From Euperipatoides rowelli (taxonomy: Eukaryota; Onychophora; Udeonychophora; Euonychophora; Peripatopsidae), in assembly GCA_003024985.2 (NCBI GenBank), contig PXIH01S0000137.1: a stretch of 21,437 bases of DNA; one strand, written 5' to 3'. The position numbers were made by a program, and so were the translations under genes. Position 1 is the stretch's first letter. Each line of letters begins with the position of its first letter. Of the stretch, positions 3,452 through 21,358 are shown in pieces. The notes beneath the pieces are model-generated. The model had not been told where the DNA came from. It did no database searches and saw only the letters and a list, made by a program, of their open reading frames with translations.

Positions 3452-3472
3452 ATGTTTAGACCAATATATTTA
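3452..3472 (-). other. Candidate 21 nt microexon (minus strand)
   Basis: On the minus strand a T-rich tract ending TTTTTTCTTTTAAG is followed by 21 nt and then the donor GTAAGG (plus 3446-3451). The length divides by three. Phases 0 and 2 contain stops. The phase using one leading base reads KYIGLN and leaves AT. That is the phase open in every other candidate of the chain. The acceptor is AAG, a less favoured trinucleotide, and G+C is low, so a chance pair is quite possible. Confidence 0.2.
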
Positions 3473-3539
3473 CTTAAAAGAAAAAATATTTAGTTAAATT
3501 TAGAATCCCCTGCAGCATGGTAAATATTTTTAAAAAAGG

Positions 3540-3930
3540 GTCAATCTTTGAATGGTTAAATTAAAAATATTGGAAACTAAAAATACCACTAACAACTTAT
3601 TGTAATTCATAAAATAATATTTGACAGGTTAAGTTAAAAATATTAGAAAAGTAAAACAGCACTAATAATTTATTGTAATTCAGAGTAGAATGTTTGATAG
3701 GTTTAATTAAAATTATTGGAAAAGTAAACACCACTTAATAATTTTATTGTAACTCAGAATTTTTGACGGGTTAAATTAAAAATATCGAAAAAGTAAAACA
3801 CACCACCATTTATTTTAATACATCGTATAATGTATGAGTACGACAGATTAATTTTTTTTAAAAAATTGGAAATTAAAATTAACTAATAATTTATTGTAAT
3901 TCATTCATAGTAGAACGTATACTTTTCTAT
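3540..3930. repeat. Degenerate minisatellite, ~73 bp unit
   Basis: GGTTAAATTAAAAATATTGG, followed by AAA-GTAAAACACCACTAATAA-like sequence and TTTATTGTAATTCA, recurs with starts near 3554, 3627, 3700, 3769 and 3845. The periods are about 73, 73, 69 and 76 bp. Further eroded units can be followed to about 4100, including another TTTATTGTAATT. The array is distinct from the adjacent ~54 bp array upstream. Confidence 0.85.
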
Positions 3931-4119
3931 TGTTACATTGCGATTTTAAAAGGACATATTAACTTTTTTTTAAACTGGAACAATTAATAAACCGATTTTA
4001 AAAAATAGCAATTATTTCAGATTTATATTTTACGAAAAAAATAGAAAATTATTTATTGTAATTTTAGAATGTATATTTTCCATTAGATTATGATTGACTT
4101 TTGCCTAGCAACTTAATAA

Positions 4120-4905
4120 TGCATTATACCATCCAAACATACTTAATAAGAGAATAAGATATGTTATATTATTATTTACAGTATATGGCTTTGGTCTCTT
4201 TATTCAAACAAATATGGGCTTTAAAAGTAAAAAATAAAAATAAAAAAAATAAACCATGCTTAACTTTAAATAATTTAATGTCTATATATTGTAGATAATT
4301 TGAATTTTTTAAATTACGTAATACAGTCATTTCAATAGGTTTTAACCAAACTGATATATTACTTAGAGGTTTTAGTATACACTAGCTGAGAAAACATATT
4401 GACAGTATATCCTAATAAAGATAATGATCTATAATTGAATAATGTTTGATATTTTTATTTTATGATGTGCTAATTGATTAGATCAGGAGATAGACATTTC
4501 CATTGTGATACTTTAAAGTATTACAAAATATCACTTAAACTGAGAAATCGACAGCTATCCAAATAATGCTTTATATTCAAGTAGAATGTATGTATAAATT
4601 TACGGTAATAAAAAAATATGGCAAACGTTTTTAAAGTAATGTTTAGCTTATACCAATAATAAAATTATGATTATCAACAACATTCTTTTAGCCCAAAGTA
4701 GGAACATTAATTTAAGATGGTTATTTTATAATGGTCCACTTTTTACTGTTTTAACAAAGCAAGATTACCTGAACCTAATTAAATATTTGATATAAAGTAA
4801 TTTAAAAATAGTACACAATATTATGATTAATAATCTATATTAAAGAATACATAAATAACAAGCCAATAATATAACATATAAAGAAATAAGTTCTACTACT
4901 GGACG
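4120..4905. other. AT-rich DNA without a recognisable gene
   Basis: Only AT-rich unique sequence is visible. A very short AG/GT pair on the minus strand (GTTCAG, 6 nt, just before a GTAATC donor near 4770) is too weak to call. Confidence 0.5.
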
Positions 4906-4910
4906 TAATC

Positions 4911-4931
4911 AGTCACATGATGCATGTGACT
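4911..4931. repeat. Perfect 9 bp inverted repeat with a 3 nt loop
   Basis: AGTCACATG (4911-4919) and CATGTGACT (4923-4931) are perfect reverse complements separated by ATG. The outer bases AATC/GATT continue the symmetry after a small offset. The arms contain CACATG/CATGTG, an E-box-like word. It could be a hairpin, a dimeric transcription-factor site, or the core of a small palindromic element. Confidence 0.85.
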
Positions 4932-5029
4932 ATTGATTTATGTTTGATCAGCTAAAATACATACACATGTATAGATTATATGACAAAGTATATATACAAC
5001 AAATTATAAAAAAAGGCAAAATTAACGAT

Positions 5030-5150
5030 AAAATAAATTCATGCTTAAAAAAAAGCACTACTTTCACAAAAATTAAAAAATATACAAAAACAACAAAAGC
5101 ACACCACCTCAAAAAAAAAAATTTCACAAAAAAAAAAAAAAAATGGGAAC
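5030..5150. repeat. A-rich low-complexity tract
   Basis: The plus strand is almost entirely A with occasional C, including runs of 11 and more than 14 A. Both short ORFs across it (Lys-rich on plus, Phe-rich on minus) are by-products. On the minus strand it is a long poly-T tract immediately downstream of the candidate donor at 5149-5154. Confidence 0.9.
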
Positions 5151-5154
5151 TCAC

Positions 5155-5169
5155 CTTTCAGGAAATAGT
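5155..5169 (-). other. Candidate 15 nt microexon (minus strand)
   Basis: The minus strand reads AATTTATTTTAG, then 15 nt, then GTGAGT (plus 5149-5154), with the exon ending AAAG before the donor. That gives AAG|GTGAGT, a near-consensus junction. The length divides by three. Phase 0 has a stop. The phase with one leading base reads LFPE and leaves AG. The T-rich acceptor tract is good, with 12 T from a plus A-free stretch slightly further upstream. It sits between the 6030 and 3452 candidates on the same strand. Confidence 0.28.
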
Positions 5170-5499
5170 CTAAAATAAATTATAAAAGTATTTTTTTTTT
5201 TATAAAATTAAAGTGTTTTATAAAAGGATGACCCTCTATGTACCGTTAAATAAAAAGGTTAAAAGCACATGTTAAAAAATAAAACAATGAGAGATAGAGC
5301 GAAAAAATAAAATTAAAAATAAAAAATTTTAGGCCTATTATAAAATGAAGATATTTCTAAAATATATCTCTGTGATAAAATGTATTTTAATGTTCTTATA
5401 TAAACACATAAAGTTAACAAACTCAAAATTCAATTTTGAGAAACTTGAATCTAGAATTTCTTTAGAAATATCTAAAAATAGTATAAATGCAAAGTATTA

Positions 5500-5670
5500 T
5501 CAGCTCCTATAATTAAATTAATAATCAAATTAATTTAAATATTAATTAAAATGTTAAAAATATGAATTAATAATATATATTATTTTCATTAAGGATTTAA
5601 TAACAAAATCAATAAATTAAATATTATTTGATTAATTAATTAAAGTTCATGCTAATTACATTAATAAAAA
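5500..5670. other. Extremely AT-rich block with TTAATTAA-type words
   Basis: Over about 170 bp nearly every base is A or T, with repeated ATTAATTA, TTAATTAATTAA and AATATATATTATT words. Such blocks can act as easily melted or matrix-attachment DNA, but nothing in the sequence establishes a function. No gene is seen. Confidence 0.6.
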
Positions 5671-5849
5671 GCATATTTCTGATTTTAGTTGAGGGACACC
5701 GACACAGAAAAAAAAAAGAAAGAATTTATAACGTTAATAATTAATATTGTTTGCACTCACACAACTTCAAAGTAGTAAGTAATAACATATAACACATAGG
5801 TTATAATAATAGAAATACTTTATTAGTACTGTATAAGACTTATTATACA

Positions 5850-5985
5850 ATCTAGAGCAAGCGTCCATGCTGCTGCTTCGTAGCATAGTTCACCGCGAAA
5901 GTCAAGTGACTTCCCACGTGATGTTCCTGTACACGTCAGCGCTCCTCCCAAAGTAGCCTTGTAGTATAGAGGACGCTCCTATACA
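5850..5985. other. GC-richer island in AT-rich surroundings
   Basis: This 135 bp segment stands out for base composition. It contains a CACGTG E-box (5915-5920), an ACACGTCAGCG word, a short ATGCT...AGCAT hairpin, and AGCGTCC (5860-5866) paired with GGACGCT (5971-5977) as an inverted repeat about 105 bp apart. GTATAG/CTATAC flanks the right copy. It does not fold as a tRNA and has no useful ORF. It could be a remnant of a transposable element or an enhancer-like unit; the sequence does not decide. Confidence 0.4.
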
Positions 5986-6029
5986 TAACAATTTTGTCGC
6001 CGAATATAATCATTGGGTTAATGTCTTAC

Positions 6030-6041
6030 GTAAAACCTGGA
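6030..6041 (-). other. Candidate 12 nt microexon (minus strand)
   Basis: On the minus strand an ATTCTTGCCCAG acceptor is followed by 12 nt (TCCAGGTTTTAC) and the donor GTAAGA (plus 6024-6029). The CAG acceptor with pyrimidines in front is one of the better ones in the window. All three phases are open. In the chain phase it reads PGF and leaves AC. Confidence 0.25.
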
Positions 6042-6187
6042 CTGGGCAAGAATTTACTTCTTATCATTTACAAATAGACATTTTCAATACTACCACCAAT
6101 CAGTCTGAAAGTTCTGAACACACACTTAATTATCTGACAGTGCCTGACCGTTCACTGGTTGGATACATTTTTAGGGTAACTATTAGG

Positions 6188-6217
6188 TTAATGCAAATTC
6201 TCGTTATTTTGCATTAA
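6188..6217. repeat. Hairpin, 10 bp perfect stem with a 10 nt loop
   Basis: TTAATGCAAA (6188-6197) pairs with TTTGCATTAA (6208-6217). The left arm contains ATGCAAAT, the POU/octamer word. No terminator or RNA-gene context is evident. Confidence 0.75.
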
Positions 6218-6219
6218 AT

Positions 6220-6960
6220 CCTACCTACAGATTTTTGCTACAAAATGAGATCTTTAAAAAAAAATCATTGCTGTAAATAATAAATTTCATTCTGACCATT
6301 TTTGTTTAGGATATATTAAATTAAAAATGGTGGTCAATGGCTCACATATCAAACATACACAAATATTTAATTTCTCTCGCCTGACTATAAATCTAGAACA
6401 GAGGTCAGCTTTTGATTTAAATTTCACACAAAATGTAAACTAACACGAGGATCAATAATCTGTTGCTGTTTTTATATACCGTACTGGTACTGTATTAAAA
6501 AAAAAGCGGAATTTTTACAGATGACGGAAAAATTAATGCATTATTTGATTATAAAAACAAATTGAATTTAACAAATTTACATACATTATAATTAAATTTA
6601 TTTAAACTATTAGATATTTGTGTAAGATGTTTGTTAAAGGTGAAACTCCTTCTTTAATCCTTTAATCTCAAAGGGTGATATCTAATGCCACAATACTCTT
6701 CAATGCAATATTTTAGATAGTTTGCATTGGAGTTTTATTACTGGGATCAGAGATCTTAAAAAATATAATCTGAACACTTTTTTAAAAAAGAGCATGAGAA
6801 TGAGATTTCTATCATTACACTGCATGGTTCAAATGTAATAAATTTTGTTCTGTCTGTAATTTTCTAATACGGGAGAGAAAAGGATTGTGCTGAAAATAAT
6901 TCAATCGCTTATCCGATCCATCATTTGAATATAAAAAAATTTTCCCACATCAATAAAAAA
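6220..6960. other. AT-rich DNA, no gene recognised
   Basis: No ORF, RNA gene or clear repeat is seen, apart from a 9-base A-run near 6497 and a TACTGTA word near 6489. Confidence 0.5.
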
Positions 6961-7174
6961 CATGTCTTGAGAGGATCTGCAGGAATCGGACTAGTAAGAG
7001 GAACAGAGGGATGGAAGGGGAAAAAGAAGAGGAAGACCAAGAAGAGAATGGTTGGATGACCTTAAGGACTGGACTAACATCAGATAATTCTCTATATTAA
7101 AAAGAAGAGCTCAAGTTAGAAATCTTTGGCGATCATTGAACATGAATCTCCGACTCAGAGAATGCACCCAATGA
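6961..7174 (+). pseudogene. Decayed 3' end of a LINE reverse-transcriptase ORF
   Basis: The stretch reads HVLRGSAG..LVRGTEGWKGKK from 6961, then after a one-base frameshift near 7018 GKRRGRPRREWLDDLKDWTN from 7019. Next come an in-frame TAA at 7085-7087, then FSILKRRAQVRNLWRSLN, then MNLRLRECTQ and TGA at 7172-7174. The order GHxLRG ... GK(R)RGRPR-xWLDDLKxWT ... RAQxRxxWRxL is the well-known C-terminal tail of reverse transcriptases encoded by several animal non-LTR retrotransposon clades. Only this tail is present; the catalytic reverse-transcriptase and endonuclease domains are absent. That fits the 5' truncation usual for LINE insertions. One frameshift and one stop mean it is dead. Coding bases here are visibly richer in G+C than the flanks. 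I cannot assign the clade. Confidence 0.88.
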
Positions 7175-8500
7175 TCATGAATTTTTCTGTGAAGATGGCT
7201 CCTCTGTATTGATTTAATTAACAGCAAATAAATTAATTATGAAAAACCTAAAGCAATATTTTCAAAGATAATTAATTAAATTAAAAAGTATTATAGAATA
7301 ATTAAGTAATTTAATTCAAAATAAAAAAATATAAAAAAGTCATTTTTTTAAAAATATTAATCAAGCAATATTAAGTAAATAGAAAAAGCGATAAGGTACA
7401 TAGAGGGTTGAGATGGCCAAAACCAATCCCCAGGGCTGTAATATACTGTAGATACTGATGAATTGCGTTCCTCTCAAGTTTTAGGTAAAAAAAAAAAAAA
7501 AACAGAAAAAAAAAAAAGCAATGAAACATAAATTATGAAAATAAAGACAAATGGTTTCACAGAACAACCAAAAATATGACAGCAAAATGAATAAAAAAAA
7601 AGAAAACACGAAAGAAATATTTATAATAAACTTGCAAATCTACAGCTGACAGAAGAGATTAAGAGAAAAAGAAGAGAAATATTGTTTAAATTGTAAACCT
7701 TTAGCACCAACTCCAGAAGAAATAAGAAAGAATATAAGTGTCTAAGAAGACTCATAGAATACAAGTCAGTCAATGAAATGAAAGTATGTTGTAAATAATA
7801 TAGTGAACACAATTTTGTTGACATAAGGAAGGACTCATTCACATGGTGATAAATCATCATTTAACAAAATCGTTATATACTTTAGCGATTCAAAAACAAC
7901 AAAAATATTTAATTATTCATTACTGGTAAATACATTATTTAATAAAAAGTGTTTTAATTCAATAAATGCCTCAAATCACAAAAATGAAAATCTATTAATT
8001 GTTTTTATCAATTCAATGATAAATATAATAAACTACATTATGCTAACAGTTAACGGTATATTTAATGAAAATGTGCATATTAGCGTAACTGTATCAATTG
8101 TATCCTTTTTTAGGAAGATTTATATGTGAATGAATCCTAGAGAGTGTTTTATATTTGTAACAAATGTACTGTTGTATTGTAATTACATTACTTTTGTTGT
8201 AGGCTATTATTAAGTAGTATTATGTTTATAATTTGGATGTCTCATGTAATTTGAAATAACAATGAGAAATAAATTAAACTAAAAATATAGCTATAATGCA
8301 TTTATATTTTACACGTTATTCAAAAATAATTATATAATGTAACTGCGGGCAATATTTTTGTAAGCTCATTAAATAAAATTCCTTAAGCTATTGAAATGTT
8401 TACAGGTAGGCTAAGAAAAATGAAAGTTTATCAAAAGAAATCAAATATTTGCAAGTTATTTTAAAAAAATTTCTTTTTTTAGCACTTTACAAAAATACAG
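7175..8500. other. AT-rich DNA with A-runs; no gene
   Basis: Two A-runs (about 14 and 12 bases) lie at 7487-7518. A purine-rich segment at 7621-7860 is read on the minus strand as a 79-codon hydrophobic ORF. On the plus strand it gives fragments such as LANLQLTEEIKRKRREIL interrupted by several stops. Neither reading is recognisable, and I leave it as unassigned sequence, possibly a very old pseudogene or repeat. Confidence 0.45.
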
Positions 8501-8504
8501 AAGA

Positions 8505-8650
8505 CTGAAAACAATCGCCGCTAAAAAAAAAAAAGACCAGCCACAAACATGGCTATTGCACATACACAAAAACGAATAGATAAGAAGTATGCTGGGCAAA
8601 AAAAAAAAAGCGAGAATCACCGCCACCAACAGATGAAGAAGACTTGAAAA
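8505..8650. other. Complex segment with two 12-base A-tracts
   Basis: Two A12 tracts about 75 bp apart (near 8523 and 8600) are each bordered by G+C-containing words (ATCGCCGCT, GACCAGCCACAAACATGGC, GCGAGAATCACCGCCACC). The composition differs from the surrounding DNA. It may be a retroposed fragment with A-rich ends, but no direct repeats or Pol III boxes were found. Confidence 0.3.
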
Positions 8651-8666
8651 ATTAAGTAATACTTAC

Positions 8667-8678
8667 GCATCAGGTTTA
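8667..8678 (-). other. Candidate 12 nt microexon (minus strand)
   Basis: The minus strand reads TTATTATTTTTTCCACAG, then TAAACCTGATGC, then GTAAGTATT (donor plus 8661-8666). Acceptor and donor are both close to consensus. The length divides by three. Phase 0 starts with a stop. The chain phase reads KPD and leaves GC; phase 2 reads NLM. Among the very short candidates this has the best pair of splice sites. Confidence 0.32.
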
Positions 8679-8739
8679 CTGTGGAAAAAATAATAACCAA
8701 AAAAAATATCAAAATAAAAAAAACAACAAAAAAAAAAAT

Positions 8740-9340
8740 ATCATGAGAAGGCTATAAATAAATGTACAATAATAAAATTGATGTGATGAATATAAGTTGA
8801 TGTATTGATGGTAAAATTAAACCTAAGGAAATGTGCATATATTTTTATTATTAATGATCAAATTTTGTACAATAATTTAAATTTAATATTACAGTATACT
8901 GTATGTAAAAAATATGAAAAAAAAAATCATTTAAATATTGTAAAGATTTAAAAAATTTGCCGGGAAATGCATTTAAAAAAATCATTCCTTATTTTAAATT
9001 ACTTGAGTAGCTTTCTAAAAAAAAATATATTTACGGTACTATTTTTTAAAAAAATAATTTTATATTTTACACTAAACATAAGACTCTAGAATTGACTTAA
9101 AACTTTTGACACATAATTAGAATTGTTAAAGAAATGAATGAAATATCATTGTCCATTACACACAAAAGGTAAATACACAACTTGATAAATCATTTATTAA
9201 TACAATTTCAATTATTTTAACTTCAAAGCAGTAAATTGGACATAAAGATGATTTAACCAAGCTGATAAAAAGCACATTAAAAATTCAAATATATACACAT
9301 TTTGTAATTATTTGTGCGTCTAACATTTAAGGTGTAAATA
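8740..9340. other. AT-rich DNA; includes a perfect 14 bp palindrome at 8890-8903
   Basis: TACAGTATACTGTA at 8890-8903 is a perfect palindrome made of the window's recurrent TACTGTA/TACAGTA word. The remainder is AT-rich without a gene. Confidence 0.6.
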
Positions 9341-9345
9341 TAATC

Positions 9346-9412
9346 ATATTGTTTATCAAAAACAATTGTTTTCAAATAAACAATATTAATCTTCATTTAA
9401 TTTTAAATGAAG
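9346..9412. repeat. Cluster of nested and adjacent palindromes
   Basis: ATATTGTTTA (9346-9355) pairs with TAAACAATAT (9377-9386), enclosing a perfect 14 bp palindrome AAAACAATTGTTTT (9359-9372). Five bases further on, CTTCATTTAA (9391-9400) pairs with TTAAATGAAG (9403-9412) around TT, a 22 bp perfect palindrome. Three symmetric structures within 67 bp is unusual even for AT-rich DNA. Confidence 0.8.
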
Positions 9413-9419
9413 GCATTGA

Positions 9420-10243
9420 CAAATAAAAGACTGACAATAACACAAACAATATAAAACACAATTGGAGTTGATATTAGACAATGGATTAATCACAAAAAGG
9501 GGAGTATTTTAAAAAATATATTTTCATGCCTTTTTAATAACATCATTAAAATATTTATATCAATTTGTATATATTACAACTGTAATTATGTACAGTTCTA
9601 AAGATTTAGCCTATTGTATTACCATAATATTTCTAGAGATCAATGGACAGAGAACCGTAATTTACAGCAATGAAAAATCCAATAGCCAATCTGATTTGTG
9701 AAGCCTATTTCAATCCCAAATTATTTTTCTATCTAATAAAGACGGGTAATTTTATTCCCTATATCACATATTATAAAAGCATCTCGGATACATGGCTGAT
9801 TAAAATATATATTTTATTAAAATATACACTAAATAAGGTACTGTATATATATAAATTATTAAATGTAATTTGTATTTTAAATGTTTGCATTAAACTTTTA
9901 CTTGCTAGCAGCCTGCTTATTAATAATTGTATTATTTAGAACTTTGGCCTGCTGTGAAAAGCAAAATTACGATACAATTTTAACAAAAATTATTAAAACC
10001 AAGTAAATTAATTTTGTAGCAGATTAATCAAGCAAACAGTATTTTGATATTGAATGTTTGATTGTTTTTATTGATGAAAAAACCAACTTGCAAAATCTCT
10101 TCTCACTAACTAACTGTACAATAAAACATTTTATATTGTAATAATTTTATAAATTCATAATGCCTATATATTATTTTAAAAACTTTGCATTTCTTTAATT
10201 AGCAAACAATATTATTTTTGAACTATGAAAAATTTAATAGATG
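9420..10243. other. AT-rich DNA, no gene recognised
   Basis: A plus-strand ORF of 89 codons at 9670-9939 is rich in Leu, Ile, Tyr and Asn with no recognisable domain. Its start region (MKNPIANLICEAYFNPKLFF) is a little less AT-biased, but there is no promoter or splice support. I treat it as chance. Confidence 0.45.
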
Positions 10244-10251
10244 GTCTTAAC
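10244..10251. repeat. Left target-site duplication of the hAT element
   Basis: GTCTTAAC directly abuts the element's left terminal inverted repeat and is repeated exactly at 11525-11532. Eight bases is the duplication length made by hAT transposases. Confidence 0.9.
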
Positions 10252-11524
10252 CAATGGTGTATTGCTAAAAATGTTTCTGAGTATACTCCAACTGGGAGTG
10301 TGTGCGGGAGGGGGTACCCCCCCCCCTGCAAGAAAATTTTGTAAAATTAGCTCTCTGTTTAAGGCTTTTAAATACTTTGTTTCAAGTTCATTATAAGAAA
10401 AATCAGTTTTTCAAATTTTTTGCACTTCCAGTTCAGTCTCTCCTACATTAGTTTTAATTTTGCTCATCTTGTTTTCTTTTGATATGCATANNNNNNNNNN
10501 NNNNNNNNNNNNNNNNNNNNNNNNNNNNNNNNNNNNNNNNNNNNNNNNNNNNNNNNNNNNNNNNNNNNNNNNNNNNNNNNNNNNNNNNNNNNNNNNNNNN
10601 NNNNNNNNNNNNNNNNNNNNNNNNNNNNNNNNNNNNNNNNNNNNNNNNNNNNNNNNNNNNNNNNNNNNNNNNNNNNNNNNNNNNNNNNNNNNNNNNNNNN
10701 NNNNNNNNNNNNNNNNNNNNNNNNNNNNNNNNNNNNNNNNNNNNNNNNNNNNNNNNNNNNNNNNNNNNNNNNNNNNNNNNNNNNNNNNNNNNNNNNNNNN
10801 NNNNNNNNNNNNNNNNNNNNNNNNNNNNNNNNNNNNNNNNNNNNNNNNNNNNNNNNNNNNNNNNNNNNNNNNNNNNNNNNNNNNNNNNNNNNNNNNNNNN
10901 NNNNNNNNNNNNNNNNNNNNNNNNNNNNNNNNNNNNNNNNNNNNNNNNNNNNNNNNNNNNNNNNNNNNNNNNNNNNNNNNNNNNNNNNNNNNNNNNNNNN
11001 NNNNNNNNNNNNNNNNNNNNNNNNNNNNNNNNNNNNNNNNNNNNNNNNNNNNNNNNNNNNNNNNNNNNNNNNNNNNNNNNNNNNNNNNNNNNNNNNNNNN
11101 NNNNNNNNNNNNNNNNNNNNNNNNNNNNNNNNNNNNNNNNNNNNNNNNNNNNNNNNNNNNNNNNNNNNNNNNNNNNNNNNNNNNNNNNNNNNNNNNNNNN
11201 NNNNNNNNNNNNNNNNNNNNNNNNNNNNNNNNNNNNNNNNNNNNNNNNNNNNNNNNNNNNNNNNNNNNNNNNNNNNNNNNNNNNNNNNNNNNNNNNNNNN
11301 NNNNNNNNNNNNNNNNNNNNNNNNNNNNNNNNNNNNNNNNNNNNNNNNNNNNNNNNNNNNNNNNNNNNNNNNNNNNNAAAAAATTATAACATGTCAATTA
11401 TTGTTTAAGAATATACAACCGTATAGCCATGTAATTGATTATCATTTTCTAAGTATACGCTTATAAAAATTAATCTTTCTAGTTATACTACGTATACCCT
11501 CGTATACCCCCCAATATAGCACTG
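10252..11524. mobile_element. hAT-superfamily DNA transposon (interior lost in assembly gap)
   Basis: The left end reads CAATGGTGTATTGC and the right end, reverse-complemented, reads CAGTGCTATATTGG. They agree at 10 of the first 14 positions and fit the CAGTG-type terminal repeat of hAT elements. Perfect 8 bp duplications GTCTTAAC flank both ends. Sub-terminal sequence on the left has GTATACTCC and a GGGAGGGGGTACCCC block; on the right it has repeated CGTATACCC words, the G/C-run and GTATAC motifs acting as sub-terminal repeats. The central 887 bases are N, so a transposase cannot be confirmed. The right-going minus-strand reading before the left end (MSKIKTNVGETELEVQKI then stop, about 10411-10470) could be the end of an internal ORF but matches no transposase motif I know. 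Confidence 0.85.
10491..11377. other. Assembly gap (887 N)
   Basis: An uninterrupted run of N lies wholly inside the hAT element. The three ORFs of about 309-328 codons spanning it are artefacts of translating N. Repeated copies of the element elsewhere, or the G/C homopolymer at its left end, probably caused the gap. The true size may differ from 887. Confidence 0.99.
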
Positions 11525-11532
11525 GTCTTAAC
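11525..11532. repeat. Right target-site duplication of the hAT element
   Basis: GTCTTAAC, identical to 10244-10251, follows immediately after the terminal CACTG of the right inverted repeat. Confidence 0.9.
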
Positions 11533-12485
11533 CTACTAAACCAAAAGTCAACTCTAAACCCAATACTTTTCATACTGGTTACTCTATCCATTGTCATTCA
11601 AAAAAATCACACTAACGACTAACGAGTAACACTGTAGGCAGTTTCATGAAGTAGGACTCTATTTAACTATACATTATCCTATACTTGAAAAGGTAAGAAA
11701 AGGCTTTATTTATACAATTTTACTAACTTTATTTGCAGCTTTTATTAAGGGGTGGGGACTACAGATCAGAACATTTTTTATTTATTTATTAAGTTATGGC
11801 AATTTAAATAGGAAAATAATACATGGCTTTAAAAGGCGAGTTAAAATATGTAGTTGTATTTTATTGTGGATACTTATCATAAAAACAGACACCATCTTTG
11901 AATTTTATAGTATCAACAATTTTAGCTGCTCGGTAACAAAACCAGATAAAAACATGGGACCAGTATTTTATGCAGTTCTAATGATATTAAATACCGTACA
12001 ACTATGTTTTATTTGTAAAAATTAACTTTTTATATTTACATTTTTTTCAAACATGTATTAGGGCTTTTTTTTCAATAATGATTTGATGTTTTAAATGTCT
12101 CATTGTATAAAATGAATACTTAAAATTTAAAAACATAGTTGTATAATCATGCCAATTTTTAGGAAGTTACAACAGGTTAAATAAGATGTATGAATTTTAT
12201 AAGTGACTGAATACATCAAAATTTCTATTTTGAAAAAAAACATTTAAATATTAAAAAAAAATCAATCAGAAATTATATTTTTCAAATATTTATTTTGTGG
12301 TTTGCCAATTATCAACCAAGAGAAATGCAGTAAAATGAAAAATATCAAAGATTTTAGCCTAAACTACATAATTTTTATTTCAACTTTGACTAGTAAGAAA
12401 TCAATATAAAATTGATTTTTAATAATGAAGAGACATTATACAAGTAAAACTTTATTGTATTATAACATATAGAGAATTTGAAATG
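11533..12485. other. AT-rich DNA, no gene recognised
   Basis: Unique AT-rich sequence. A plus-strand AAAG|GTAAGA word near 11691 has only poor upstream acceptors giving lengths not divisible by three. Confidence 0.5.
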
Positions 12486-12489
12486 TAAA

Positions 12490-12660
12490 AATCATAAAAT
12501 CTAAAAATCGGTTCTGGAATTAATTTCCGGCTCAAAACCTGTAGCATATCCCCTTTAATGAACAATATTCAGCCTTGTTGTAGTAGTATTAGATGATTTG
12601 TGAGCAGGAATTTTCCAACGCTGGTGAATAATGTTATAAACTTACTCTGTTTATATGTTA
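12490..12660. other. Less AT-rich segment of unknown origin
   Basis: The plus strand has an open stretch KIGSGINFRLKTCSISPLMN... to a TGA near 12595, continuing in the same frame as FVSRNFPTLVNNVINLLC after the stop. The minus strand carries GGGGATATGCTACAGG and TTGAGCCGGAAATTAATTCC words. A minus-strand GTAAGT donor (plus 12646-12651) directly follows an ACAG, leaving room for only one base, so no microexon is called. It may be an old interspersed repeat; I do not recognise it. Confidence 0.3.
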
Positions 12661-12664
12661 CAAA

Positions 12665-13660
12665 TTTTATTTGGAGTTTTTATAAAAGATTAAAATTTAG
12701 CAATTAAATTAAATGAATTTGAGAATTAGAATTATATTTAATTATATTATGTTATTCTATATAAAGAGTGCAAAAATTAATTCATTGAGGTGAATAAAAT
12801 ATTCTGTTAATAAATTATTTTTTTTTATCATTACTGGGGTAATTTTTTAATGTCTTATTAAAAAAGTCATTTTTAAATATATTTTTTTACTCATTTACCC
12901 TTAAAACATTAAAATTTATTAACAAAAAGTAATAAATTTTTTGACATAAAAACAATCATGATTTGTGGTATAGCAACTATAGATTTGACAAATTCATTGT
13001 AGCAAAAAAATCACAATTTGTTTTCATATTACTGAAAACAAATTTTGGAAGAAATAACAGATCTCCCCAAATGAAAAAAAAAAACCCTGCCAACGGTGGT
13101 AATTATAATAGAAAGCAAAATATAATGAATACTTTCTTGAATAAAAGAAAAAAAAAAATTTCATAAGAGTAATGTTTAAAAAAAAAAAACTTTCGATGGA
13201 TATACTGTACCAAAATAAAAAGACACGGCAATAAAACACAACCACAAAATAATCCAATTGAAATTTTAAAATCCGATTAAATTGGCAGAAAAAAATTTAG
13301 TTGAAGAAAATGTCAAAAAAATTAGTTATTATTAACGGTAACTGCAGCAATGTAATTTATAAGTTCATGATAAAAGCAATTGTGAAAACCACTAGACATA
13401 TTCCGATTTGAAAAATAACTTATTTTTGCGAATTATATATAATTGAATTATGAATCAATAAATAGGCCACTGGGGAAAAAAGATGATGACCATCCCTCTC
13501 CTTCCCCCCACCCTGACCGGAAAAAAAAAAGATGAACCAAAGAGGGAGAAGAAAAAAATTAAAAAAAAAAAAATACTGGTGGTATATTTCTTTATCTGAA
13601 TGATGAAAAAATAGTGCTTTCAGCACATCAAAGGCGGAACTTGTTAGTGAGATATATAGG
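12665..13660. other. AT-rich DNA with many A-runs
   Basis: A-runs of 9-12 occur near 13075, 13149, 13180, 13520 and 13560 on the plus strand. Between about 13490 and 13550 a CCCTCTCCTTCCCCCCACCC pyrimidine block and a purine block stand side by side. The overlapping short ORFs on both strands are low-complexity (Lys-rich or Phe-rich) and not credible. Confidence 0.5.
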
Positions 13661-13673
13661 TTTGTCTACTCAC

Positions 13674-13682
13674 GCAGCAGAT
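13674..13682 (-). other. Candidate 9 nt microexon (minus strand)
   Basis: The minus strand reads AATTTATTTTTTATAG, then ATCTGCTGC, then GTGAGTAGAC (donor plus 13668-13673). The T-rich acceptor and strong donor are both good. Five of nine bases are G or C. The chain phase reads SA and leaves GC. The interval is so short that coding content offers no test. Confidence 0.25.
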
Positions 13683-13689
13683 CTATAAA

Positions 13690-14390
13690 AAATAAATTTC
13701 AAAACTTGTTTAAAATTATATTCTTCCAAAAAATAACCGTCTATATACCAAACAGTTCCAAGACAGGGAAGAGGATAAGAATAGAGCAAAGAAGAAAAAG
13801 GGGAGTCTGGAAGGTGTTAAACATCATTGACAACTATTCATACAAGCCAATGAAAACAAACCATGCAACTACATAAAAAACAATACAAAATACAAGCACT
13901 ACAATTCTACATGAAACAAAGTAACATACACATTAACAAATTCTGTTATACAACAAACTCAAAATATATAGTTCTTAAAAAAAATTACTTTTAACATGCT
14001 CATAACTAAATTATCATGCTAGGAACGAAGGTTTTACAAAGAAAACCTCATGGAGATCGCATGACTGTTACAGCAAAATAAAAGTAATTCTAAAATTATA
14101 ATACTAGTAATCAAAGTTAAATAGAAGTAAATTTTAAAATTAAATTAACTAAAACTACTGGGAAACTACAAATTATATGACTAAAGTTAATATAATACTA
14201 TTTATTAAACAATAACATAAATCCCACAAATTACAAGGCACTAGTGTGGTACAAGCATGAGTAAAAGTAGGAAAGAATGGAAATACAACTGAAAACATGG
14301 TATATAGACGGTACACAAAACGTTCAACAGAGAGAGAAAAAAACACCCCCTTCTGGTTTTAACTAATGGATGGCTACCAAATAAAAATGC
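13690..14390. other. AT-rich DNA upstream of the 24 nt microexon candidate's donor
   Basis: No recognisable gene. On the minus strand this would be the intron between the 24 nt and 9 nt candidates. A 64-codon minus-strand ORF at 14241-14435 has no recognisable features. Confidence 0.4.
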
Positions 14391-14391
14391 C

Positions 14392-14408
14392 TTTTGCACA
14401 GTGCAAAA
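14392..14408. repeat. 17 bp near-perfect palindrome TTTTGCACAGTGCAAAA
   Basis: TTTTGCAC and GTGCAAAA are perfect arms around a single A. On the minus strand it lies about 45 nt downstream of the 24 nt microexon candidate. A symmetric element this close to a microexon donor could be an intronic structure or a DNA-binding site; this is inference only. Confidence 0.85.
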
Positions 14409-14453
14409 ATGTATTTTTAGATTAATACCATCCACAATTGGAACAAAACTTAC

Positions 14454-14477
14454 TCTGGATCCAGGCCTTTCTTCAAG
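14454..14477 (-). CDS. Candidate 24 nt microexon of an unidentified minus-strand gene
   Basis: The minus strand shows a T9 tract and CTTTTCAG (acceptor, plus 14478-14480 is the CAG), then 24 nt, then GTAAGTTTTG (donor, plus 14448-14453). Twelve of the 24 bases are G or C, against roughly a quarter in the surroundings, so composition as well as the splice sites suggests selection. Phase 2 contains a stop. Phase 0 reads LEERPGSR. The phase with one leading base reads LKKGLDP and leaves GA. Only the latter stays open through the downstream candidates at 13674, 8667, 6030, 5155 and 3452. Twenty-four-nucleotide, frame-preserving exons are a known class of alternatively used microexons in animal genes. 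I do not recognise the peptide, so no gene is named. The last exon base before GT is A rather than the preferred G. Confidence 0.45.
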
Positions 14478-14484
14478 CTGAAAA

Positions 14485-15545
14485 GAAAAAAAAATATTAT
14501 GTAAATAATTTTAATATTTTTTAAATCAGAAAAAAAAAAAAAATCCAATAAAAAATATTGTTTACAAAAAGAACTAAAGTCAATTCAATAGGGTACATAA
14601 TGTAGTCCTTCTTATTTTACTCTTGAGAAGTCATTTTATGTTTGCGAGTTTGATTTATGAAGTGTTACTTAAATTAAATTGATCAGCGATTTCAAACACT
14701 AGCTATAGATAATATGGAAATTGTTGGTGAATTGTGTTCAAAATATAATAAATAATCTATCGACCATGATTCAAATTTCAAACTTTTTACTTAAAATAGA
14801 CCCAAATTCTTAACAAAATTGTATTTTATATTTATACTTCACAACTCCATCCTGATGACCACAAATTGAAGTACAGGTAGTATTTGTATTTCGAATGAAG
14901 CCCAATTTATAAAAAATGTCAAACACACACATGACAGTCATTTCCAGTTAAATTTTATCAATAATAAAAAAAAATTAAACTAGAAAAATAAACAAGAGAA
15001 AAATTGTCTTTTTTAAAAACTAAGACTAAAAAAAATATCATTTAAAAAGTCTTCTTATTCTTTGGCTGTTTGTTTAAAACTATGTGGCAACACTTTATAG
15101 CTGAACAGTAGTCATTATATTCACACAATGTAATGCTATCATTTAATTACCAAGGCATAATAATAACCTGTTAGAACTATGTCAGGATATCAGTAAATAT
15201 AATGTTGCAAGACGATTTTTAAAATATGAGCATAACTCATGCATTTCATTCTGACAAGTATGTTATTATTTTAAGGAGATACTTGTAATGTTACATTAGA
15301 AACTTATTTATAAAATGGGAAAGCAGGCACAACTACTTTAAAAATATTATGACAGTGAATTCATACACTTTTACCATTACAATTAGAATTTTTTTTAATT
15401 TATAGGCTGTTTGATATTATAACGATTAGGGGTTCTTATGTTTTATTATTTGTTATTTATTGCTTTAAAGAGATAGCTGATGTTATTTCAAGGTATAATT
15501 ACTTTCTTAATACATCATTTACGAATCGCATGCGTAAATATAGTA
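14485..15545. other. AT-rich DNA, no gene recognised
   Basis: Unique AT-rich sequence with A-runs near 14486 and 14530. On the minus strand this would be the intron just upstream of the 24 nt candidate. No RNA gene is seen. Confidence 0.45.
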
Positions 15546-15551
15546 CTAAAA

Positions 15552-15692
15552 TGACGTCAAATCATTGAATTGAATTATCTCTTGAAATATTCAAACCCAC
15601 TTGAACGAGCTAAATAATTAATTAGTTATTCATTTTATACATTTGTTTGCGCACTCTTTGTATTATAAAATGGAGCGCCCACACAAATCTTA
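15552..15692 (+). promoter_or_regulatory. Core-promoter-like layout: CRE, TATA box, initiator
   Basis: TGACGTCA, a full CRE/ATF palindrome, lies at 15552-15559. TATAAAA is at 15664-15670, followed by GC-richer GGAGCGCCCACAC. TTAGTCT at 15690-15696 fits the initiator YYANWYY with its A at 15692, 28 bases after the first T of the TATA box, which is the standard spacing. A 100-codon ORF starts at 15705 but is unrecognised and would leave a 5' leader of only about 13 nt. The layout suits either a cellular promoter or the U3/R of an LTR retroelement. I found no convincing TG...CA ends or target-site duplication. Confidence 0.4.
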
Positions 15693-15704
15693 GTCTGTAT
15701 TCGC

Positions 15705-16007
15705 ATGTTGGTTAGTTGCTGCCTTTCCAGCGGATACTTTTATTTTACCACCTTATTGTTTATATTTTTATGCAGTAACCACCTTTCCAGGTTGCAGACC
15801 GCCCCAATACTGTGTTTAACGGTCATTACTAGAAGACGGCTTTTGATTTGTATACCATTTTATTTAGTACCTGTATATAAAATTGGAGTTATTTCCAGTC
15901 ATCGGTGTTTGGCTAATCTATTCAACTTTTTACCTTATGAAAAGCCATTTTATGGTAATAAAAAGCCATTTGTTATAAATACTGTAAATGTATTGTATAT
16001 TATATGA
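15705..16007 (+). other. Unrecognised 100-codon ORF downstream of the promoter-like element
   Basis: The reading starts MLVSCCLSSGYFYFTTLLFI, with an N-terminal hydrophobic stretch that resembles a signal peptide or membrane segment (about residues 10-23), then a basic middle (TRRR near residue 42). It is less AT-driven than other ORFs here, with Cys, Pro, Ser and Arg. An AATAAA word at 15957-15962 falls inside the 3' part. I recognise no domain. It may be a real short gene, part of an LTR, or chance. Confidence 0.2.
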
Positions 16008-16009
16008 AT

Positions 16010-16760
16010 ATGTGTGTGTATAAAATAATTGACACAAAAGGCAAGTGGGGCAAGAGTTAATTCAACTTTAAGATTAGAAAAAAAAAAAAAAACTTCTACT
16101 CGGACAAAAAAAAAAAACAATTATTTTGATTAGTCTCCAATATATCAGTGTCAATATTTATAAATGAAAATAACATTTCTCCTTACCAAGAATTCCAGAA
16201 CTTTGTTAATGATTGTCGAACAACTAAAGAATTACAATCTGAATATTAAAACAATATACATTTATATTACATTTTTTATTCTTTATTATTATATAAATAT
16301 TTTGTTGTTTCCAAGTGTAATGTTCAATAATATTAATATCTATGGTAAAATTCTTAAATGCTTCCTAGTAACACCAACGTATAATGTAAATTCACTATTA
16401 CAGTTTAATATGATTGAAAAGCTGAATCAAATCATAGAACCTTTGTAGGCAGAAGATTATCAAACAAAAAAAATAGAAATGGATTGAATCTATGTTAAAA
16501 ATCAGTTTTAAATTAACAGTTTTGAAAGTTTTATTAGTTAGCTTCATTGACAAAAAAAAAAGTAACCACTAAAAAAAAAAAAAGTAAACGACGACTGTGG
16601 TGATTCCCGGCCACTCAAATTCTGGGAGATTAATGATCACTTAAAATTTGAATATATTTAATACTTGAATTGAAAAACTAAAATATCCTAATAATTCAAT
16701 AATTATTAAAGTTTTATAATATAACAATAGCTATTATTATTTAATATCAGTAAAAAAAAA
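16010..16760. other. AT-rich DNA with A-runs; one discarded exon-like interval
   Basis: A-runs of 10-14 lie near 16078, 16107, 16553 and 16571. On the minus strand a CTTTAG acceptor, 37 nt (16187-16223) and a CTTG|GTAAGG donor form an exon-like interval. Its length is not divisible by three and its inclusion would break the phase of the downstream chain. A CAAATTCTGGG at 16616-16626 is exactly reverse-complemented at 17018-17028. Confidence 0.4.
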
Positions 16761-16763
16761 CAT

Positions 16764-16801
16764 TCGACTCCGACTCCTGTTAATTTTAGTAGTTCGACTC
16801 T
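16764..16801. repeat. GACTCC-type short repeat, left copy
   Basis: TTCGACTCCGACTCCTG and, after an insert, TTCGACTC. A related GACTCC cluster lies at 17738-17776 on the other side of the ~122 bp array, so the two may mark the borders of one compound repeat. Confidence 0.5.
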
Positions 16802-17079
16802 AACAAAATTAAATACAAAGACATTTTATTGTGAGTGTAATAAAAAAGAGAAAAAAATATATAAAGAAATGATTCAAAATTTGAGTCAAAATTCAAATTC
16901 AAATCAGTTACAATGTGTACTCTACTAAAAACAGAAATACTGCAGAGAAAACTACAAATTTAATAAATTAAAACTAGTCGAAAGCCGTCCAAATCGACGT
17001 TAATTTTTTTTTTTGAGCCCAGAATTTGGTGTCGTGTTTGGAACTATGGTAAACTCTCCCAATGTATTTGCTCTCCCCC

Positions 17080-17640
17080 CGCCCATCCCCCCAAAAAAAT
17101 GGGCAAGTCTATTTTCATTGTCTAAAATGATGGAATTCAATTGGGCTTTCCTAGCACCCCAATGGGATTCTAGACCTTTAGGGTAACACAAATTTCAAAT
17201 TAATCGGACATTTTAAAATATTTTGATTTTTGGGGGATCCTAGCACCCTCATGTGTACACCTAGAACCTTGACCTTTTATATACATATTATAGACTTCTC
17301 GTGTAACACCAATTTCAAATTATAACTTAATCGGAGCATTTTAAAAAATTTAGATTTTTGGGGGTCCCCTAGCACAATGTGACCACCTAGGACCTTGACC
17401 TTTTATATGTACATATTCTACACTTATAGTGTACACAAATTTCAACTTAATTGGAGCATTTTAAAAAATAGAGATTTTTGGTGCCCCCCTAGGACCCCTA
17501 TGTGACCACCTAGGACCTAGACCTTTATATACATATTGTAGACCTCTATGGTAATACCAATTTCAGCTTAATTGGGCAAACCATTGGGGAGAAAATTTAA
17601 TTTAAAGAATTCGGAATGACGGACACACAGAGAAAATTTG
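17080..17640. repeat. Tandem array, ~120-127 bp unit, about four copies
   Basis: AATTTCAA(A/C)TTAAT(C/T)GGA phase points lie at about 17191, 17311, 17438 and 17559, giving periods of 120, 127 and 121 bp. Each unit has CATTTTAAAA, then GATTTTTGGGGG with a C-run, CCTAG(C/G)AC, ATGTG(A/T)(A/C)CACCTAG, ACCTTGACCTTTTATAT(A/G), ACATATT and TAGAC. The array ends with GAATGACGGACACACAG, a tail style seen on similar long-period repeats of marine invertebrates (recollection, not checked). A 63-codon minus-strand ORF at 17000-17191 overlaps the first degenerate unit and is not a gene. Confidence 0.9.
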
Positions 17641-17737
17641 TTTTTTTTTTAATATAATAATAATTGGCAACAAACCACCTCTCAATTTTTTATTTCTATA
17701 AAATTTAAACATAGACTTGAAGTCGGCACATTTGTTT

Positions 17738-17776
17738 GACTCCACTGACTAGAAATTCCTCCTAAACTCTGACTCC
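17738..17776. repeat. GACTCC-type short repeat, right copy
   Basis: TTTGACTCCACTGACTAG and, after an insert, CTCTGACTCCAGAAACC. It parallels the 16764-16801 cluster. Confidence 0.45.
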
Positions 17777-17941
17777 AGAAACCTGGTTAATATATGTGCA
17801 ATCCATTTTTTTATTTTAAATTTTTATGTAAGGTAGGAGGAAAAATTACAAAAAATATTGTCCTTGAAAATTGTCTTTTTTTTTAAAAGATCCATTCCCT
17901 TCAAAGAAGTTTACTTTATTCCATTAATGTTTTTTATTATG

Positions 17942-18197
17942 AGTAATTAGTTATCCTCTTCAGGCATGTTCACGGTTTTCTTCAAATGCTTCCGTAACAC
18001 TCACTATAAGCGAATAAAATCTATCCATTAGTGGTCATATTTTTTTAAAAAGATTTAATGGCCTTTTCTATCTTTCTATGTATTATTTGAAGAGTAATTG
18101 AAAGGATAACTTGCCCAGTAATTAGTTATCCTTTTCAGGCATGTTCACAATTTTCTTCAAATGCTTCCCTAAACACTCACCATAAGTGACTAAAATA
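17942..18197. repeat. Direct duplication, ~80 bp copies 175 bp apart, with an internal hairpin
   Basis: AGTAATTAGTTATCCTCTTC at 17942 recurs with one change at 18117. Homology continues through CAGGCATGTTCAC, TTTTCTTCAAATGCTTCC and AACACTCAC to about 18021 and 18197. Just before the second copy AAAGGATAACT (18101-18111) is the exact reverse complement of AGTTATCCTTT (18124-18134), giving an 11 bp stem. The first copy lacks this hairpin. Confidence 0.9.
18181..18189 (-). other. Weak candidate 9 nt microexon (minus strand)
   Basis: The minus strand reads TGAAATATTTTAG, TCACTTATG, GTGAGTGTTT (donor plus 18175-18180). The length divides by three and the chain phase is open (HL, leaving TG). The interval lies inside the second copy of the 80 bp duplication. 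The first copy keeps the donor but not the acceptor spacing, which weakens it. Confidence 0.12.
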
Positions 18198-18623
18198 TTT
18201 CAATTGGGCCTACTTTGGACTGTACTTTTAAAAGGAAATGACCCATTCACAATTCAGGATGATCAAATTAATATTGCTTATAGATATTACCAAAAGTTTA
18301 TTTATCCAATTAGAAATATTTAGCCTATTTTATTAATATTATTATTCTTAATGTTGTGTTCAAATTTAATTTTTAAAGTTAAAATTTCTTAGTTATTTTT
18401 ATACGAACAAGATTGTAATTTGTTATAGCCTAGTACTAATAAATCAGTGAATAGAATAGTTTTGTGTGAAAGTAATTTTTGCACTGTAGTTAAAGTCTGT
18501 TTAGGTTGAAAAGTTAACTTATTCAGCATTTAAAAATACAATTTTATATATTTTAAGCATATGAGCATTAGCAAAAAAAATTATTAGGACAAAAAAATTT
18601 CCTTCTTACGTCAAATCTAAGAT

Positions 18624-18684
18624 GATCATTAATCACCCCAGAAATGACCATTAATCATCCCAATGCAAGGGTGATTAATGGTCA
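18624..18684. repeat. Compound palindrome built from (G)GGTGATTAATG(A/G)TCA
   Basis: GATCATTAATCACCCC (18624-18639) and TGACCATTAATCATCCC (18645-18661) point one way. GGGTGATTAATGGTCA (18669-18684) points the other, around a 7 nt loop AATGCAA. The hairpin arms pair over 16-17 bases with one indel. Related words occur at 2010-2064, about 16603-16640 (GGTGATTCCC, GATTAATGATCAC) and about 18841 (AATCACCCC), so this looks like a dispersed palindromic element. Confidence 0.75.
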
Positions 18685-18689
18685 CAGAT

Positions 18690-19670
18690 TTTTAAAATAA
18701 AATTACGTGGTTAAGTAATATTATGTTGAAATAAATACTTGGTAATTACTAAATAATATAGAGCTGGTCTCATGCCAAATTTTGAATTATCACCATACAA
18801 TATTTTTTTGTAAAGATATTTTAATAGTTTTTGGTTAGAAATCACCCCAAATGGAAAAAAAAAAACATGTAATATTACTTAAATGATAAGAGGAGGCCAA
18901 AAATATTTACAAAACATACTGTATGTATCAGTAGTATTTATAAATCAGGAGCCAATAATTGCTTCAAAGAACAGAAAAATCAAAATTATTTGTCACCCAT
19001 TTTGATAAAACTAACTTTATAAAAACAGTGAACTTTATAAAGCAATGACATAACCATTAGGAATGTAACATGTTGAAAACTGGGCAGTAATTATAACAAT
19101 TGGTTTAAAGTATAACGGGTTTAAAAGCTTATGTCTAGGTACTTGGCAACACAAACTATAAGAACAAATAATAAAACTAAATATATAATTATAATAAAAA
19201 CAACTATTATGACAAGCCTTAAAATTTTTCTTTATAGTCTATAATAATTATTATTCAAATAAAGGCAGAATCATCAAATAACTTAGCATAAAAAAAACAC
19301 ATGGTTAAATTATTTTAAAAAGGCTTTTTTTTTAGAGAGTTCTTAGTACGGTATTATTACTTTTACTTTTGAAATAAGTTACGGGTATCTCTTTTCAAGA
19401 AATGAGTATTTTGTGTATCTTAAATATAAATCCGAAACGATTTCAAAGAAAACATAGCCAGAATACAATTTGTACTTATACATGTCCGAGATGATGGTTT
19501 GATTTCATCATGACAAAGACTTAAAGATGAAATGCAATGAATTTTAACAATTTTTTTTTAATCATATATTTTGAAAAATGATTAAAAAACATGATTCCAC
19601 ATGTCAATAAAAAAAGTTATTGAATATTAATCAAATTCTATTTTATAGCTTTCCCACCCTTTTAATGGAT
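18690..19670. other. AT-rich DNA, no gene recognised
   Basis: Unique AT-rich sequence with a 10-base A-run near 18856 and T-runs near 19329 and 19552. No gene, RNA or clear repeat. Confidence 0.5.
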
Positions 19671-19674
19671 ATAT

Positions 19675-19861
19675 TATAAATAGACGCTGGCATTGCACTT
19701 ACACTATGTTTGATGTCACCAGCATACTACTGCTTGATAGATATATGGATGCCTATGTTAATTTCTCTGAGTAATAGCACATTATGAATCCAGAAAATAC
19801 GGAAATTACTGCAATTAAATCGGAGCGCACTCAGAGCAAGTTAGTTTTGAATATTTTATAG
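19675..19861 (+). promoter_or_regulatory. Weak TATA-like element with two tiny ORFs
   Basis: TATAAATAG at 19675 is followed at 19706-19774 by a 22-codon ORF and at 19784-19861 by a 25-codon ORF starting MNPENTEITAIKSERTQSK. A GTTAGT word at 19840 could serve as a donor inside the second. Composition is more codon-like than the flanks. There is no independent support, and the minus-strand microexon reading at 19703-19732 competes with it. Confidence 0.15.
19703..19726 (-). other. Candidate 24/27/30 nt microexon with triple tandem acceptor
   Basis: On the minus strand three successive trinucleotides AAG, CAG and TAG (plus 19727-19735) precede 24 nt and the donor GTAAGTGC (plus 19697-19702). 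Whichever acceptor is used, the length stays divisible by three (24, 27 or 30). The chain phase is open as MLVTSNI, optionally with one or two leading Ser. The pyrimidine tract is poor. The same bases on the plus strand lie in a 22-codon ORF (MFDVTSILLLDRYMDAYVNF...), a competing reading. Confidence 0.2.
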
Positions 19862-20335
19862 CATCACCAGTGATGGTATAAAACAACTATCAACAAATCA
19901 AATATTGTATTAAAAAAATTACATCCTTTTAATATACTGCATTTAATAAGATATAATGCTAGTATAGAATAATTTTAAGATCGATTGATTTGGTTTAGGA
20001 AATTAAATAAATTTATTAAATAAATTTTATTCGATCATTGAATAAAATGTTCAATGTTAATTGAAAATCTTTAATGCTGCTACTGTAAATGAATTTTTAC
20101 AATAAAATAAATAAATAAATTACTAAGAATGATCAAGGCTAGTGCAACCAAATATTTGATGAATTAATGATTTTATTTCTTTGATTGTTCAACTACACTG
20201 TTTTGTAGATGTGTGAGAGAGTTTTCTTGCATTTTCCAGGACAATGATTTTTTTTTTACTATATCAATAAATCAATAACAAAGAGAAAAAGCATGATTTT
20301 TTTATCTTGGCGATTCCATTGGACTGCCTTCTTAC

Positions 20336-20365
20336 TTTATTAAATACAAAAGTTTGCAATCCCTA
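20336..20365 (-). other. Weak candidate 27/30 nt microexon (minus strand)
   Basis: The minus strand has AATTGTTGAATATTTAG (and TAG again three bases later), 30 or 27 nt, then GTAAGAAGG (donor plus 20330-20335). The length divides by three either way, and the chain phase is open (RDCKLLYLI, leaving AA). Acceptor quality is modest and the last exon bases TAAA do not match the donor consensus. Confidence 0.15.
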
Positions 20366-20497
20366 CTAAATATTCAACAATTACATTTTTAAAATAAAAA
20401 TAATTATATTTTTGGTATTATTGGTAATTTTATGACTCATGGATTTAAAAAAAAAATCATGATTATTTAATACACATCAAGAAATAAGGGTCCTACT

Positions 20498-20651
20498 CAG
20501 TGGTAGGATTCAAATACTTTAGGAAATGTTTGCAGGTTCGTTCTTCAAAGCCTCTCCCCATATTATTTTGACTGTTAGCGGACATCTTTTGTCTGAATAT
20601 ATTAAATTCATTGCTGAAAATTATTTTTCTGCTTCTGCTGAACTAAGGTAA
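20498..20651 (+). mobile_element. Possible hAT-type left terminus with a 41-codon ORF
   Basis: CAGTGGTAGGATTCAAATAC at 20498 looks like the terminal sequence of a hAT element, which typically starts CAGTG(G). A CAGGTTCG and a CCTCTCCCC block follow. From 20526 to 20651 an ORF reads MFAGSFFKASPHIILTVSGH, then LLSEYIKFIAENYFSASAEL before R and stop; it is better balanced in composition than other ORFs here. No right terminus (reverse complement of CAGTGGTAGG) and no second copy of the flanking GTCCTACT appear before the window ends, so the element is either longer than the window or broken. TCCTAC/GTAGGA also makes a 6 bp hairpin here, an alternative explanation. Confidence 0.3.
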
Positions 20652-20659
20652 TAGTATTT

Positions 20660-21290
20660 ATATTTTTAGATTTCTGAAATTTTTTTGAGATTTTCAGATT
20701 CTGACAATTTATCTGCACATTTTCAAAATATTCTCTTTGTCAGTTTCATAATAAAAAAATGCATTGAATATTATTGTATTTTTTCTTCTGCAGTTTTCCA
20801 TGGAATGATAATTCAAGATATTTAATTTGTTCTCTTAGGATTTGTATATTTGATTTTACATTTTTGTTCTTGTAAGAGAAATAAATTTTGATCTTTGATA
20901 ATTTAAAAAAAAAAAAAAAATTGATAATTTGCTTGGAAGTATTTTCAGTTCAATTTAAAAGATATATTTAAAACAAAAACAAGTTTTGATTGATTTTGCA
21001 AATAAGTTTGCCCATTGTTCAAACCGTGATAGTTTAGGATTCATTTTATGTATTATTTTTAAATATTCTATAGTTAATTAAAAGGACATAAACGAACGCT
21101 TGACGTATTACTTATTCTCTGTTGTTGCTCAGAGAAAATTACCATAAGCAGCCAAGAATTTAAAGTGATGTACTGCAAAATGTAATCTCGGACTAAGACA
21201 TTTTTATTTATTACATTTCATAATTAAAAAACTTTAATTTTTAAATTTTTTTTTTTTTAAATAGTGAAATCTTTTATAATTTTTTTTTTT
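20660..21290. other. T-rich DNA, no gene recognised
   Basis: Plus-strand T-runs predominate, with one 15-base A-run near 20909. No recognisable ORF or RNA gene. Confidence 0.45.
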
Positions 21291-21300
21291 TAAATTGAAG

Positions 21301-21358
21301 ATGTTAAAATGTTATGTTCGGTCAATTTTTATATGGATGCGAGACTTGGACTTTAACC
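21301..21358 (+). pseudogene. LINE reverse-transcriptase relic (YGCETWTLT motif)
   Basis: From 21301 the plus strand reads MLKCYVRSIF. After a frame change in the T-run at about 21326-21331, the next frame reads LYGCETWTLT (from 21329). The pair (K)xYVxSxxLYGCETWTL is a strong signature of the region just after the reverse-transcriptase domain in many animal LINEs. It lies upstream, in the full-length protein, of the GRPRxxWLDDLKxW tail seen at 7019. The homology stops abruptly after about 58 bp (reading TLSLGNYFF then stop), so only a scrap remains. Whether it comes from the same family as the 6961-7174 relic cannot be told. Confidence 0.75.

Follow-up and report, generated by a model that had tools for sequence, protein, structure and literature searches.

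A 24-nt troponin T microexon and five candidate intervals downstream of it in the onychophoran Euperipatoides rowelli

In muscle, troponin T (TnT) attaches the troponin complex to tropomyosin. Its acidic N-terminal part is known to vary, and the microexons known from chicken and Drosophila TnT lie in that variable part. Chicken cardiac TnT has a 6-nt exon, and a title cited in the same source names a 3-bp microexon in Drosophila TnT (both in PMC8042270). Schistosome micro-exon genes (MEGs) carry tandem symmetric exons of 6-36 bp, with a signal peptide in several family members (PMC3961193), and nearly all internal exons of aphid bicycle genes are small and start at codon position 2 (PMC9168663); both families are linked to secretion.

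We analyzed a window of 21,437 nucleotides from Euperipatoides rowelli in which an initial annotation had read six minus-strand intervals as a possible chain of phase-symmetric microexons. Re-reading the minus strand bore out the description itself. The intervals measure 24, 9, 12, 12, 15 and 21 nt (Table 1), each is flanked by AG upstream and GT downstream with the donors described, and one common phase is open in all six, the 21-nt interval being open in that phase only. The acceptors had been called usually T-rich; that of 6030-6041 is an exception, with a T fraction of 0.30. We report here that the first interval belongs to a TnT gene, and we weigh what the other five, which lie downstream of it, may be.

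Table 1. Features of the locus, in window numbering
Feature	Coordinates	Strand	Length	Reading	Basis or remarks
Seven TnT exons, right flank	33973-34005, 32678-32750, 31928-32044, 30081-30167, 29817-29957, 24064-24285, 23890-23936	minus
Intron between exon 23890-23936 and microexon	14478-23889	minus	9412 nt		exon ends; N run 21438-22743 inside
Part of that intron within the window	14478-21437	minus			exon ends
Microexon, phase 2 to phase 2	14454-14477	minus	24 nt	(Y)LKKGLDP(E)	homology and frame
Candidate interval	13674-13682	minus	9 nt	SA	splice score 2.5; donor position -1 is C
N run	10491-11377	none	887 N		may contain the missing conserved TnT exon
Candidate interval, unproven	8667-8678	minus	12 nt	KPD	splice score 5.3; donor position -1 is C
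Candidate interval	6030-6041	minus	12 nt	PGF	splice score 1.7; acceptor not T-rich; donor position -1 is C
Candidate cassette microexon	5155-5169	minus	15 nt	LFPE + S	splice score 11.2; donor AAG/gtgagt; without homology
Candidate interval, unproven	3452-3472	minus	21 nt	KYIGLN	splice score 7.4

A troponin T gene on the minus strand

The gene on the window's minus strand is, by the homology of its predicted product, TnT. The window lies in contig C71 (37,583 bases), part of an assembly of 100.9 Mb; its left flank consists of 2,801 bases that are all N, and its right flank is readable except for an N run at 21438-22743 (1,306 nt) and two single N. Seven TnT exons fall in the right flank, the two most upstream (33973-34005 and 32678-32750) placed mainly by splice signals, frame and looser likeness. 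The first coding exon was not found. Joined with the intervals, the seven exons yield a partial protein of 269 residues that matches the Pfam Troponin profile (PF00992; E 1.7e-8, 35.3 bits against a cut-off of 26.2). Fifteen of its 17 PDB matches are troponin T (best E 1.6e-13), and the remaining two are troponin I (E 0.003-0.004).

Homologues place the gene among ecdysozoan TnTs. Searching a protein collection with the partial protein returned 126 homologues at E<=1e-3; among the 120 of them listed, those carrying both a TnT name and an organism come from arthropods, nematodes and tardigrades. A 45-row tree was built from the query and 44 homologues hand-picked from the 120, its phyla limited to tardigrades, nematodes and arthropods. 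In it the query groups with three tardigrade TnTs (97/92), adjoining nematodes and separate from arthropods, which makes a non-arthropod ecdysozoan the probable source; a search for COX1 found nothing. Searched against the assembly, a tardigrade TnT matched four exon pieces; every one lies on the minus strand of C71, and none is C-terminal. Besides this tree position, the upstream exons and the LKKGLDPE motif match ecdysozoan TnT (PF00992). Differences from those homologues are a Y before LKK, a C-terminal segment missing from the readable sequence, and a separate 24-nt exon for LKKGLDPE.

Two other troponin-like features were seen. The symmetric 33-nt exon at 33973-34005 (minus strand; L005:2536-2568), upstream in the TnT gene, codes EEEAPKTPRL in the acidic N-terminal part. 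A second match to the Troponin profile lies elsewhere in the assembly, in region L007 (G000:C2754:16434-16556, plus strand), where two exons read like troponin I and have troponin I as their single PDB match (E 0.007). The same region holds a short stretch (L007:2880-2980) reminiscent of a fragment from a 7SL-derived or Alu-like element.

The window and the sampled assembly contain further repeats and foreign sequence. The stretch 595-1294 comprises about four direct repeats, each some 175 bases long and 88-90% alike, and further imperfect repeats lie at 3543-3837, 17167-17578 and 17942-18196. A repeat at 6960-7109, which resembles the tail of a LINE-type element, is 81% identical to L004:1557-1709. 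Open frames in L024 (G000:C2001:1-10000) resemble parts of a Maverick/Polinton-type element. Of 20 further assembly regions sampled as background, 11 were wholly N and 2 mostly N. One region (L012, G000:C76:1-10000) is a bacterial contig within the animal assembly and carries a LepA-like frame along with genes for a V-type ATPase. Its ATPase A protein shares 78-79% identity with that of four Borreliella genomes and at most 70% with the other 76 loci kept. The contig may derive from an associated spirochaete close to the Borrelia family.

The 24-nt microexon

Homology and frame agreement set 14454-14477 apart from chance and mark it as a genuine symmetric TnT microexon. Exon 23890-23936 reads LKELNERQRQINRNK, its terminal TA precedes a gtaagt donor, and it ends in phase 2. 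Across the intron, 14454-14477 contributes the C that follows this TA and reads Y-LKKGLDP-(GA). The in-frame junction of exon and microexon reads NERQRQINRNKY-LKKGLDPE, and the joined reading is LKELNERQRQINRNKY-LKKGLDPE. Homologues have, for example, LKELNERQRQINRNKA-LKKGLDPE at the same point, others have LKKGLDPE or a close variant, and the motif LKELxERQxQxxxxxxLKKGLDPE runs across the two exons. LKK is preceded by A in 182 of 185 pattern-matched homologues and by H in the other 3, which are tardigrades; here Y precedes it. The splice score of the microexon, 12.2, is the highest among 13 scored exons and intervals. The frame join of 14454-14477 indicates that the TnT gene is indeed read in the phase chosen in the initial annotation.

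The microexon differs in position from those described in other TnT genes. It shares with the chicken and Drosophila examples its tiny size and its gene family, whereas the motif that it codes is nearly invariant and lies late in the protein. An intron at the same place in other species is hinted at by three homologues, truncated or read-through (P0023; P0051, Armadillidium; P0078, Diploptera), that break directly after GLDPE. Were the intron 3' of the microexon retained in Euperipatoides, the protein would end at GLDPE, because GA followed by gtaa gives GAG TAA.

The locus also departs from the microexon gene families of schistosomes and aphids. The initial annotation had suggested an analogous fast-evolving secreted gene, and the likeness lies in exons that are small and either have lengths divisible by three or share a single phase, as PMC3961193 and PMC9168663 describe for those families. 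Set against the 6-36 bp tandem symmetric exons of MEGs, the locus offers one proven 24-nt exon, a 33-nt exon upstream and five unproven intervals. Bicycle exons start at codon position 2, whereas 14454-14477 starts at position 3 and the exons found here at 1 or 3. In contrast to families linked to secretion, the gene codes for a conserved protein of muscle, and its exons differ in phase. Sizes and a common phase are all that speak for a secreted gene of this kind, whose probability we put close to nil; for 14454-14477 it is refuted, since that interval is TnT by homology and frame.

Five intervals downstream of GLDPE

In homologues, a stretch of nearly constant length follows the microexon motif. 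We fetched the 199 best-scoring homologues, mostly arthropod and nematode, from 2734 at E<=1e-8. In 185 of them, 6 or 7 residues separate GxDPx from PPK. Of the remaining 14, seven differ in a letter but not in spacing; six are truncated, pass into other sequence or are scrambled; and one (P0199) gave no anchor. None of the 192 judgeable homologues among the 199 has an insert after GLDPE.

The conserved segment that should follow in a protostome TnT, PPK...SKYxRxxDRR, was not found in the readable contig or the readable assembly, parts of both of which read N. On the contig's minus strand, neither motif searches (PPK, SKY, KY[DE]R, DRRxY) nor a profile scan of the sequence downstream of 14454-14477 rose above controls. 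Drosophila-like and nematode-like C-terminal TnT queries found no match in the assembly, in searches that ran without a positive control. The microexon would then be spliced over a long intron to a PPK...SKYxRxxDRR exon lying within the N run at 10491-11377 or beyond the readable left end. With the exon in the N run, the intervals from 8667 downward would fall outside the stretch between GLDPE and PPK.

Alternatively, the five intervals might themselves be constitutive exons coding a strongly diverged version of this segment. Their joined chain carries SKY at about the homologue distance from GLDPE, which happens in 0.07-0.13% of random chains, and it shares P and SKY with homologues in an alignment; the SKY match was noticed after the fact. 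Yet the chain as a whole (SAKPDAPGFTLFPESKYIGLN) is no closer to 53 distinct post-GLDPE homologue segments than random AG...GT chains drawn from the window (P 0.31 by best score and 0.20 by mean score), and it lacks PPK and xRxxDRR while the exons directly upstream are well conserved. The joined 29-residue microexon peptide alone had no match in PDB or Pfam. We rejected the diverged segment as first choice on the random-level similarity of the chain and regard it as very unlikely.

Whether the five intervals exceed chance depends on the rule by which they are counted. A rule resembling the initial annotation's, shaped with the intervals already in view, called for a GTRAGN donor, an AG 6-30 nt upstream and a T threshold on the minus strand downstream of 14454-14477. 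At T thresholds of 0.30, 0.40, 0.50, 0.55 and 0.60 it gave 6, 5, 4, 4 and 4 symmetric open intervals, the looser thresholds admitting some absent from the original list, against 1.33, 0.80, 0.27, 0.09 and 0.00 expected from 152,735 bases of other assembly DNA. The excess is 5- to 15-fold at T 0.30-0.50 and larger above. At T>=0.60, Markov sequences averaged 0.15-0.23 such intervals, none of 1600 (400 for each of orders 1-4) reached four, and the plus strand of the window had zero.

Generic splice weights gave no clear excess, and we weighted them more because the other rule was fitted after the intervals were known. They found 10 symmetric open intervals at a score of >=1 (7.6 expected from background, 6.0 from Markov sequences) and 3 at >=5 (1.4 and 1.3), with P between 0.087 and 0.207 across eight thresholds. 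The background, in which real exons may remain, drew on both strands of some 70 kb (60 kb minus L012) and on the contig's plus strand. The bacterial region had supplied 2 of 3 background intervals in one count; with L012 removed, the expectations for the generic weights were 7.3 and 1.4, and the picture held when the counts were repeated. Among splice-weight scans with other weights, one listed none of the six intervals and another 14454-14477 alone.

The individual intervals differ in quality. C stands at donor position -1 in 3 of the 5, versus none of 8 TnT gene exons. The intervals 13674-13682 and 6030-6041 are probably chance. The best candidate among the five is 5155-5169: only 0.18 symmetric open intervals scoring >=11 would be expected by chance in the stretch. 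At a score of >=7, 2 were seen against 0.4-0.6 expected.

At least one of the five, first 5155-5169 and then 3452-3472 or 8667-8678, could be a lineage-specific cassette microexon of TnT. All five share the true TnT phase, each is symmetric in phase 2, and any subset could thus be inserted after GLDPE with the frame kept. The excess under GTRAGN rules and the very good donor of 5155-5169 point the same way, as do the setting, in which a microexon lies next to the intervals and small exons of 33 and 47 nt (33973-34005 and 23890-23936) occur elsewhere in the gene, and the precedents in chicken and Drosophila TnT (PMC8042270). Against these stand the lack of any insert at GLDPE in the judgeable homologues, the P values of the generic count and the C at the donors. 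On balance we think a cassette doubtful. That three or more are real cassettes, giving combinatorial tiny peptides in the hinge right after LKKGLDPE, is decidedly improbable.

We consider it rather likely that the window's minus strand is the 3' part of a TnT gene in which 14454-14477 is a real exon and most or all of the five downstream intervals are chance. By homology and frame, the microexon carrying LKKGLDPE fits in phase 2 to exon 23890-23936 across the 9.4-kb intron, and splicing would, we infer, continue from GLDPE to PPK...SKYxR. Most or all of the other intervals would be AG...GT pairs arising in an AT-rich intron and symmetric by accident. The proposed chain of six microexons is thereby reduced to its first member: that one stands, and the other five have no homology and no clear excess under generic splice weights. 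The initial annotation's own caution that such pairs arise by chance probably holds for most of the five and fails for 14454-14477.

Implications for troponin T

The gene that holds the microexon is settled as TnT. Tiny symmetric exons can be looked for in raw sequence with success, in this case a real one of 24 nt after a 9.4-kb intron. If further intervals are real, they would make a new site of splicing variation in TnT, in a stretch of near-constant length among the fetched homologues; with at least three real cassettes, inserts would occur at a site where no judgeable fetched TnT has one.
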